Below, in pieces: positions 18,700-20,559 of a stretch of 64,000 nucleotides of DNA (positions within the stretch are counted from its first letter, which is position 1; every line of letters begins with the position of its first letter). Position numbers and translations under genes: made by a program. Under the pieces are notes generated by a model. That model was not told where the DNA came from, did no database searches, and worked only from the letters and a program-made list of their open reading frames with translations. Origin of the DNA: Rudanella paleaurantiibacter (GTDB lineage: Bacteria; Bacteroidota; Bacteroidia; Cytophagales; Spirosomataceae); NCBI RefSeq assembly GCF_009184635.1, contig NZ_WELI01000001.1, forward strand, positions 1,116,001-1,180,000, in the 5' to 3' direction.

Positions 18700-18771
18700 G
18701 ATGGGCGGGGCGGTTTGGGACCGGGCGCGTTGATAGGGCAGAACCCCATTGTGCAACAAAAGCCCGGACTC

Positions 18772-19272
18772 ATGGCCAAATCGGATCGTGCCTTCAACTA
18801 TGACCTCGATTACCGCAACCTCGACTTGCGCCAACAACCCCACTTGTACCGGGTAGGCAAAGGCGAAATGGGGGTGTTGCTGGTGCGGCCGTACAAAGAC
18901 GAGATTCTGCCCCATTGGCGCTTTAAAACGCCCGAAATCGCCCGCGAGTCGTCGGAGAAAATCTACAGCCTTTTCCTCGATTACAAAGCCAAAGGTGATT
19001 TTGTCGGTATGGACATGGCCCGCAAATTTTTGCAAATGGGCATGACACGAAGCTTACGCTATTATCACCATAAGTCAGGGCAAAAGTATATTGGTCCTGT
19101 ACCTGACGACAAAAAGGGGCAGAGTGGGGCCCACGGCCGCGAGCAGGCCCCTGAAGATAGGGACTATTCAAAATGGGAAAGTGCCCAGATCTTCCGCGAG
19201 AAATATCTTCAGGTGCTGGCTGATGAAGAGTACGTAAAACAGAGAGAAGCGTTTAAAATAAAATATGGATAG
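18772..19272 (+). CDS. DUF4385 protein with a replaced 3' end
   Basis: 166 residues from the ATG at 18772. The text YRVGKGEMGVLLVRPYKDEILPHWRFKTPEIARESSE and DFVGMDMARKFLQMGMTR matches DUF4385 as I recall it; the function is unknown. The first two thirds are GC-rich like the neighbours. From about 19040 the codons become AT-rich, and the last 31 residues (ESAQIFREKYLQ...FKIKYG) are mirrored by a second, host-like 3' end of exactly the same length at 20088-20183 (ESARVFYAKYLQ...WQEKYG). The present C-terminus was therefore probably brought in with the HNH cassette that separates the two ends. Confidence 0.8.
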   Translation: MAKSDRAFNYDLDYRNLDLRQQPHLYRVGKGEMGVLLVRPYKDEILPHWRFKTPEIARESSEKIYSLFLDYKAKGDFVGMDMARKFLQMGMTRSLRYYHHKSGQKYIGPVPDDKKGQSGAHGREQAPEDRDYSKWESAQIFREKYLQVLADEEYVKQREAFKIKYG

Positions 19273-20087
19273 ATAACAACGATGAATTGTGTGCTTATTC
19301 TTGTACTAGCTATGCCAAACCAAAACAAGAAGATCGGAGAATGCTCTGTTGATAATTGTAATCGACAAGCGAAAGCGTTGGGGTATTGTTCTGCACACCA
19401 TGAGCGAATAAAAAAAGGTGCTGGACTGAATCCAGAGAAGCCTTTAAGAAAAGCGGCTATTTCAATTACCGATGATCAACTCTTGGAAGCTGCTCAAAAA
19501 TCGAGTAGTTGGCGTGAGATGCTCAATCATTTAGGATTCGCAACTATGTCAGGTGCTAGAAAGCAGATACAAAATCGAGTTAAGCAACTTGGTATTGATA
19601 CATCCCATTTTCCTGTCCAGAAACCACGTGTGGAATGTTTAGTAGAAGGTTGTGAAGAATTAAGCCACGGAAAAGGGTATTGCTCAAGCCATTATGGCTA
19701 TTTAGTCCGCAATGGTGACCCACAGAAGAAAATGATTGTAGGGAAAAAAAGATATAATGCTGGTGGGTACGTAATGCTTGACGCACCTAAAAGTGATTAT
19801 GTAACTTCAAAATCAGGGCGAATTTTTGAGCATAGGTTAGTTATGTCCCAAAAGCTTGGTAGACCCCTTTTTCCGTATGAGCAGGTGCATCACAAAAATG
19901 GTGTTCGCTCTGATAATCGTATCGAAAATCTGGAGCTTTGGTCAAAAAATCAGCCTATTGGAGGCCGAGTGAGAGATCTTATTATTTGGGCCAAAGAAAT
20001 TTTAGATTTATATGGCTCAGAAGAGTCTAACTTTTGATGAAATAGTACTGATTTAAGTTAGAGAAACATCTGAGGTAATTGTATACC
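19040..20087 (+). mobile_element. HNH homing-type cassette inserted in the 3' end of the DUF4385 gene
   Basis: The segment consists of an AT-rich alternative 3' end for DUF4385 plus an AT-rich HNH endonuclease gene. Downstream the interrupted host 3' end continues without a start codon. Both copies of the 3' end share AAATATCTTCAGG (19201-19213 and 20112-20124). The right border is placed where homology to the host tail begins; the left border is judged from base composition only and is uncertain by some tens of bases. No terminal repeats or transposase are seen, which fits endonuclease-driven gene conversion better than transposition. Confidence 0.6.
19312..20037 (+). CDS. HNH homing endonuclease with two zinc-binding modules
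   Basis: 241 residues from the ATG at 19312; an earlier in-frame start at 19282 adds ten residues. Two modules have identical spacing, C11-x4-C16-x9-C26-x2-H29 and C109-x4-C114-x9-C124-x2-H127, each in a GYCSxH context. Between them lies a likely DNA-binding helical segment (SWREMLNHLGF...RVKQLGIDTSHF). The C-terminal nuclease reads EHRLVMSQKLGRP and YEQVHHKNGVRSDNRIENLELW, with H193-H194, N202 and N206. The gene is much more AT-rich than its neighbours, which indicates recent arrival. It probably cuts an uninvaded DUF4385 allele; restriction or phage-type roles are alternatives. Confidence 0.88.
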   Translation: MPNQNKKIGECSVDNCNRQAKALGYCSAHHERIKKGAGLNPEKPLRKAAISITDDQLLEAAQKSSSWREMLNHLGFATMSGARKQIQNRVKQLGIDTSHFPVQKPRVECLVEGCEELSHGKGYCSSHYGYLVRNGDPQKKMIVGKKRYNAGGYVMLDAPKSDYVTSKSGRIFEHRLVMSQKLGRPLFPYEQVHHKNGVRSDNRIENLELWSKNQPIGGRVRDLIIWAKEILDLYGSEESNF

Positions 20088-20183
20088 GAGTCGGCTCGCG
20101 TTTTCTACGCTAAATATCTTCAGGCTCGTGAAGACCCGGCGTATAAAGCCCTGCGTAAAGCCTGGCAGGAAAAGTACGGCTGA
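20079..20183 (+). pseudogene. Orphaned original 3' end of the DUF4385 gene
   Basis: The frame after the stop at 20076 encodes ESARVFYAKYLQ, then ...AYKALRKAWQEKYG and TGA: 31 residues aligning without gaps to the end of the intact DUF4385 protein. Base composition is GC-rich like the host genome, and there is no start codon. This is what the gene ended with before the cassette arrived. Confidence 0.8.
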
Positions 20184-20253
20184 GGGTACATTTTTGTAAA
20201 ACTATCCTGAGAGTTGGGAAGTTGTTATATAGATTATAATACCTATCAACATT

Positions 20254-20559
20254 ATGGATAAACTGCAAAAGCTTGAGCTAATGAACAAAATTGTTCGGGA
20301 GCTCGAAGACCTTCAGAACAGCCAAACGGCCATTATCACCAAAATTAGCCAGATTGAAGTTGATAACATGAATGGCCTCAACGACAAGTATCTGGAAGAC
20401 CACCTGGGCGATATGCACAGCAAGATTGCGGAAAGCGTAGACGCGGTCAATGAAATATTTGCGCACTTTGAAGCCCAGCGCGACGAGTACGCCGAGAAGA
20501 ACAAAGGGGCTCTGGAAGCTGCGCAGGCTGCTGCTGCAGTCGAAGCCGCCAATTCATAA
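20254..20559 (+). CDS. Small acidic helical protein of unknown function
   Basis: 101 residues, not recognised. It is almost wholly helical in composition, with heptad-like spacing (LQKLELMNKIVRELEDLQNS, HLGDMHSKIAESVDAVNEIFAHF), and ends in an alanine-rich tail (EAAQAAAAVEAANS). There is no signal peptide or membrane segment, so it is cytoplasmic. GC content and codon use are host-like, and a clear terminator follows 43 bp after the stop, supporting a real gene. The upstream TATAAT (20235-20240) is a possible promoter element of low certainty. Confidence 0.7.
   Translation: MDKLQKLELMNKIVRELEDLQNSQTAIITKISQIEVDNMNGLNDKYLEDHLGDMHSKIAESVDAVNEIFAHFEAQRDEYAEKNKGALEAAQAAAAVEAANS

Follow-up and report, generated by a model that had tools for sequence, protein, structure and literature searches.

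The DNA analysed here, a window of 64,000 nucleotides from the genome of Rudanella paleaurantiibacter (G000; 6.7 Mb, 99.9% complete), carries a DUF4385 gene whose 3' end has diverged but been maintained; next come an HNH endonuclease gene and the displaced original end of the DUF4385 gene. The anatomy of this cassette makes it very likely a homing element that would spare its host gene by bringing along a cleavage-resistant 3' end, the leftover tail being its second homology arm. As a selfish HNH element, it could probably enter related genomes without breaking the target gene; we infer cutting, resistance and the use of the leftover as homology from the arrangement of the parts. A homing endonuclease that travels with a replacement for the 3' end of its target gene had been proposed in an earlier, sequence-only reading of the locus, and the proposal gains support from three insertions at one site, two relatives with an empty site, horizontal transfer and a parallel case in Gordonia phage Kabocha.

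The DUF4385 gene (18772-19272, + strand) is full length and intact, and matches columns 1-146 of the 148 columns of PF14328 (E-value, 4.6e-61). Codons 1-90 (18772..19041, +), the proposed left homology arm, belong to the host part of the gene; their nucleotide identity to the sister genome G002 is 0.87-0.93 in all eight 20-codon windows. Codons 91-166 with the stop codon (19042..19272, +) form the substitute C-terminus, which is common to two other genomes, G169 and G067. Directly 3' of the gene, the HNH reading frame (+) opens at 19282, has its likely start at 19312 and ends at 20037. Behind it lies the leftover original DUF4385 3' end (20086..20183, +), the proposed right homology arm, which ends in ...ESARVFYAKYLQAREDPAYKALRKAWQEKYG plus stop and matches the last 29 columns (120-148) of PF14328 with an E-value of 5.6e-4. 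The next host gene (20254..20559, +; 101 aa, no confident family) is located inside the stretch that matches G002. The entire cassette, comprising the substitute 3' end and the HNH gene, thus takes up 1044 bp (19042..20085, +) where G002 has 133 bp. Its right border is given by the start of the right-arm alignment with G002 at 20086, and its left border rests on the codon-window comparison, because the left query used against G002 was cut at 19041. The profile matches and the orthology to G002 agree with the earlier description of an HNH cassette behind an intact DUF4385 gene with the original end left beyond it, and the nucleotide alignment suggested there maps the conversion tract from codon 91 onward. 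The source genome has one match each for the DUF4385 and HNH proteins at an E-value of 0.001.

HNH_3 nucleases can reside in introns, as is stated for phage ICP1 in the available text of PMC10448857, and the insert could on that ground be read as a splicing element (a group I or group II intron, or an intein) with the leftover tail as its true 3' exon. Such a reading is highly improbable. The new tail is read in frame up to a stop codon of its own, and downstream of the insert host codons 91 to about 127 are missing; the host version of the protein could therefore not be regained by splicing. DUF4385 and HNH being separate ORFs, the insert is no intein. No Rfam match was found in 18700-20400 at an E-value of 0.1, and loci L035 and L152 gave only two sub-threshold matches to microRNA families, far from the cassette.

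HNH_3 (PF13392) is the sole Pfam family matched above its cut-off by the HNH protein of the window (41.2 bits against a cut-off of 24.8; E-value, 1.2e-10), which also matches PHROG HNH families. Two Zf_WRKY19 stretches are found as well, both below the cut-off of that family. The protein contains VHHKNG...DNRIENLELW, which we take to be the intact His-His...Asn motif of the HNH_3 domain, and the motif recurs with small changes in G169. A structure model built from three sequences (mean pLDDT of 59, i.e., of low confidence) suggests two Cys/His finger-like modules, a helix-rich stretch (residues 54-93) and the HNH_3 domain. No solved structure was related to the HNH protein by sequence at an E-value of 1; the three matches of DUF4385 to solved structures (E-values, 0.26-0.99) were taken as chance.

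The transition from host to substitute sequence is sharp. The identity of the window gene to G002 is 0.90 at codons 71-90 and drops to 0.53 at codons 91-110, where its identity to G169 is 0.83. The cassette alleles of the window, G169 and G067 share MTRSLRYYHHKSG..., and at the position of MTRSLRYYHH in the substitute end of the window the 27 uninvaded family alleles read [YV]TR[SA]RRYAN (alignment of the best 30 of the family matches to DUF4385, 3 with the cassette and 27 others). The earlier reading had correctly recognized the 3' end as foreign, but had put the replaced tail at 31 codons, while it comprises 76 (codons 91-166, 19042-19269). As it had also noted, the two 31-residue tails, new and leftover, align without gaps (48% identity; E-value, 1.5e-6 within the locus). 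Their score of 32.0 bits lies above the 95% point (27.7) of a null of 99 mismatched comparisons, but the top four null scores run from 30.8 to 42.4; the score alone is therefore not beyond chance, and the identity of the leftover is settled by orthology to G002, to which the leftover tail and the next gene are 90.3% identical over 475 bp from nucleotide 20086. The leftover is accordingly the end of a DUF4385 gene and not of an unrelated one. An AT-rich composition had been said to be common to the HNH gene and the new end; the HNH gene has 40% GC, and the new tail is only patchily AT-rich, with a GC3 of 0.35-0.70 in 20-codon windows and down to 0.25 in codons 151-166.

Within the substitute C-terminus, codons 112-125 (19105..19146, +) make up a host-like patch, as if by patchy gene conversion: 38 of 42 nucleotides equal those of G002, and 29 and 30 of 42 equal those of the other two cassettes. 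Over the preceding codons 91-111, the window shares 34 of 63 nucleotides with G002 and 52 of 63 with G169.

Within the family, DUF4385 is frequent, with matches in 90 of 200 genomes sampled. The HNH gene was found in three of 222 family genomes (E-value, 1e-10), namely those of the window, G169 and G067 (the latter two under one genus label and therefore both called Spirosoma here), and always behind DUF4385; those of G169 and G067 are the further alleles followed by an HNH gene that the earlier reading had suggested looking for. An order-level sample, evidently without G169, gave it in two of 390 genomes, and a scan of the genome contigs of 84,980 species, which relied on two peptide patterns that distant relatives would escape and may not have included records close to the window genome, gave one HNH locus, in Spirosoma utsteinense LMG 31447. 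In all three genomes the left junction is at codon 90/91 and a displaced 3' fragment lies downstream of the HNH gene, the host-type DUF4385 end reading DPVKAESARIFYGKYLEAREDDQYKKLKKEWQEKYG in G169 and DPVKAESARILYAKYLEARQDAEYSQLKKEWQLRYG in G067. The leftover tails begin at different codons, about 127-130 in G169 and G067 and about 135 in the window, which means that the right boundary is not fixed. A C-terminus that matches was found in 57 of the 222 family genomes; within these, the substitute tail is restricted to the three HNH carriers, so that no relative with the new 3' end and without an HNH gene was found. G169 and G067 reach 119 and 116 bits in this comparison and the other 54 genomes at most 89.3, the motif having been read directly in 27 uninvaded loci and the remaining genomes judged by bit score. 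In G165, a member of the same family, three DUF4385 matches are present in one genome, one of them a short fragment with a stop codon.

Two uninvaded relatives, G002 and G039, show clear empty sites. G169 has 1016 bp where G039 has 109 bp; the uncut alignment of the two extends to codon 90 with 94.7% identity, breaks off there and picks up again, with 92.2% identity, within the leftover tail. Empty sites were measured for G169 and the window genome, and G067, which has no near relative in the set, is described by its left border and leftover tail. The two parts of the gene have different histories, as their trees conflict: codons 1-90 place G169 with G039 (support of 96), and codons 91-166 group the three cassette alleles (support of 100).

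Divergence at synonymous sites between G169 and G067 (Nei-Gojobori, intervals from 1000 codon resamplings) is 0.53 (0.38-0.71) for the cassette and 1.50 (1.14-2.37) for host codons, i.e., codons 1-90 of DUF4385 together with folD. The cassette dS being well below that of the hosts, the cassettes split later than the hosts and moved horizontally between the two Spirosoma lineages. The contrast is carried by HNH (0.45, 0.31-0.63) against folD (1.51, 1.09-2.55); taken alone, the value for the substitute tail (0.86, 0.45-2.67) overlaps that for DUF4385 codons 1-90 (1.44, 0.84-5.00). Between the window genome and G169 or G067, whose HNH proteins are 64-66% identical to that of the window, synonymous sites of HNH and DUF4385 are saturated and give no date for the split. 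Mobility of the cassette at a fixed site is thus established by presence and absence together with horizontal transfer, between species and not within one.

Both parts of the cassette are under purifying selection between G169 and G067, with dN/dS of 0.15 (0.08-0.24) for HNH and 0.07 (0.02-0.19) for the substitute tail. Because both are kept by selection, the hybrid DUF4385 protein is very probably functional. Selection on HNH would also suit a domesticated nuclease, directed, e.g., against phages or other DNA, whose position behind DUF4385 is incidental. The distribution of the gene makes this hardly credible: HNH is rare and patchy (3 of 222 genomes), is missing from the closest relatives G039 and G002, and is coupled to the tail swap in three out of three cases. 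In G067, moreover, it appears to be broken by a repeat. There, the gene is split between two contigs, with one piece at an end of each (L036:8423-8529 and the end of L037). One of the breaks is marked by a sequence with 10 occurrences in this genome, many of them where contigs end; the gene is probably interrupted by a multicopy repeat, an insertion sequence.

The search for a donor of the substitute tail gave none in a 296-genome sample of the phylum (13 genomes with DUF4385, of which the 11 new ones were read). Two plasmid records had DUF4385 matches, with 46% and 51% identity. A phage origin of the tail was considered and rejected, as all 80 viral DUF4385 loci read (the best 80 of 300) have TR[SA]RRYANH. 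The one DUF4385 protein read from phage records, 51 of which matched, carries GFTRARRYANH. Scanning viral sequences for the motif of the cassette turned up no relative.

The same layout was found on a terminase gene in Gordonia phage Kabocha (OP867022.1, L152:2459-3326), the HNH protein of which is a distant relative, 32.9% identical over 96% of the window HNH query. Phage Hanem lacks an HNH gene at this place, and its terminase gene and that of Kabocha differ at 18 of 1482 nucleotides, all of them within the last 55 nucleotides; 15 codons and no amino acids are changed. In Kabocha, the terminase gene is followed by the HNH gene, then by the old end, identical to Hanem at 56 of 57 nucleotides, and then by 300 of 300 identical nucleotides. 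Judged by this comparison, the Kabocha cassette carries a synonymously recoded terminase end. Phage Schomber, also without HNH at the terminase gene, has the old end, with 54 of 57 nucleotides equal to the leftover of Kabocha. The terminase end of phage ChisanaKitsune (L158:1719-1775), where HNH is likewise absent, is a mosaic that follows Kabocha over the first ~23 nucleotides and Hanem thereafter; it may be a remnant, or a recombinant that is resistant.

Related HNH loci were surveyed for tail copies by comparing the sequences up- and downstream of HNH in 31 other loci (30 distinct, L166 being the same as L167; L056 and L057, with the same hits as L055, were left out). A clear tail copy was present in one of the 31 loci, that of Kabocha, which implies that most of the HNH family works otherwise or does so undetectably. 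Besides Kabocha, six loci scored above the 95% null point when L166 and L167 are counted once. Second inspection of L172, L176 and L162 showed no copy of the end of the neighbouring gene. In L166, a 35-bp near-identical direct repeat (2422-2456 and 3535-3569) flanks HNH in a viral contig, with no gene-tail copy, and the match in L058, which has no annotation, looks by eye like a low-complexity arginine-rich reading. In the sixth, Gordonia phage Zitch (L168:1714-3975), the minor tail protein encoded before HNH has a C-terminal part with weak similarity to the product of the gene that follows HNH (24% identity over 241 aa; E-value, 5e-5 within the locus); the pair may represent two paralogues or an old case of tail swapping.

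Homologous exchange of gene ends is common, and the host-like patch in the tail of the window suggests that recombination is active at this locus. The arrangement could therefore have come about by ordinary recombination, in which a divergent DUF4385 allele was imported together with an inert HNH gene by an event homologous at one end and illegitimate at the other. We consider this improbable, since it is at odds with the identical insertion point and gene order in three genomes of two genera, and with the dN/dS of HNH, which speaks against an inert gene. Furthermore, a distant HNH has made the same layout on an unrelated gene in Kabocha, where the terminase gene before its last 55 nucleotides, as well as the 300 nucleotides downstream, is identical to Hanem.

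Under the homing interpretation, a donor and an uninvaded allele would meet, and the HNH protein would cut the uninvaded DUF4385 gene within codons 91 to about 127-135. The break would be repaired from the donor allele, with codons 1-90 as the arm on one side and the leftover tail with downstream DNA as the arm on the other. In this way, the recipient would gain the HNH gene and a substitute end that is free of the cut site and leaves the protein complete, and its own old 3' end would become the new leftover. The substitute end would thus provide both rescue and immunity for the nuclease, and the nuclease could die over time with DUF4385 staying intact, as appears to be the case in G067.

The host interval that is absent from the leftovers (codons 91 to about 127-135) holds the motif kept in the 27 uninvaded alleles, and homing sites would typically lie in a motif so conserved. 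With an active enzyme, protection would not require changes in the host-like codons 112-125, which points to codons 91-111 or 126-139 as cut candidates; codons 91-111 (19042-19104) are the most likely region. The sequence-only reading had expected a cut near AAATATCTTCAGG. This sequence occurs in the substitute tail as well as in the leftover one, and cutting there would not spare the cassette, so that this part of the reading has to be dropped.

For annotators of genomes, these loci are a warning that the end of a gene may differ in history from the rest of it. The terminase genes of Kabocha and Hanem, which differ by 18 synonymous changes and the insert alone, constitute a very clean natural experiment: phage crosses could be used to locate the cut, to find the least recoding that confers resistance and to follow the path of repair.

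Free-standing homing endonucleases of phage T4 type, such as SegG, have their genes near the target and spread by break repair with co-conversion. The cassette resembles them in the position of its endonuclease gene and differs by the substitute end and the leftover old end; to our knowledge, the T4-type endonucleases bring no duplicated substitute gene end with the old one left behind. Synthetic gene drives with recoded rescue follow the same logic as proposed here, in that recoding keeps the target protein working.

According to the available text of three studies on phages, endonuclease genes adjoin terminase genes or lie within genes (PMC10448857, PMC12724721, PMC11855218), and in these parts of the three papers no recoded-tail layout is described. 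For the insertion in a methylase gene of phage ShiLan, the first 11 residues are reported to resemble the first 11 after the insertion site (PMC11855218, available text); this insertion could be another substitute-end element. In the literature searched, mostly outside subscription journals, no prokaryotic example of the tail-replacing layout was recognized. In eukaryotes, however, the layout has been described, both in yeast (PMC7282813) and in fungal mitochondria (PMC3630166), as the accessible parts of these papers show.

The mitochondrial cases are mobile ORFs with C-terminal duplication, found at atp6, atp9, cox2 and nad3 in Glomus and at atp6 in Allomyces; a foreign 3' gene end is fused in frame, the native end is left downstream, and hybrid transcripts have been demonstrated (PMC3630166, available text). 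As far as that text goes, the likeness lies in a mobile endonuclease ORF that brings a foreign gene end and leaves the native one downstream, and the difference in the setting, the Glomus cases being mitochondrial and of LAGLIDADG or GIY-YIG type and the present ones HNH_3 elements of a bacterial chromosome and a phage genome.

WHO elements of Torulaspora and Lachancea yeasts, as portrayed in the available text of Coughlan et al. 2020 (PMC7282813), consist of an endonuclease gene downstream of an intact FBA1 gene. With every homing event a resistant version takes the place of the FBA1 3' end; the displaced end persists downstream of the endonuclease gene, where it provides homology, and trees of the 5' and 3' parts of FBA1 disagree. 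Each WHO protein is a fusion of an intein with a zinc finger and acts in nuclear genes of yeast, and cutting by WHO proteins has been demonstrated (PMC7282813). The present cassettes share with this account the intact upstream target, the replaced 3' end, the conflicting histories of the 5' and 3' parts and the displaced fragment behind the nuclease gene. Unlike WHO elements so described, they have an HNH_3 nuclease, for which cutting is predicted, reside in bacterial and phage hosts and, at the three loci inspected (window, G169 and G067), do not form clusters of successive insertions. As its nuclease is HNH_3 and not intein-derived, the DUF4385 cassette would work like a WHO element without being a member of that group.

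A layout known from yeast and fungal mitochondria is thus met here in bacteria and a phage, and its occurrence with an unrelated nuclease suggests a general design with more than one origin. It is likely, with somewhat less assurance than for the DUF4385 cassette itself, that recoded-rescue homing elements form a prokaryotic class of their own, made by a loose HNH_3 family on at least two unrelated genes and convergent with the WHO elements. The recoding would then act as a natural tag of immunity under which the host protein still functions, and in Kabocha it is purely synonymous. Among the systems described, as far as the accessible accounts allow a comparison, the WHO elements appear closest in design to the DUF4385 cassette.
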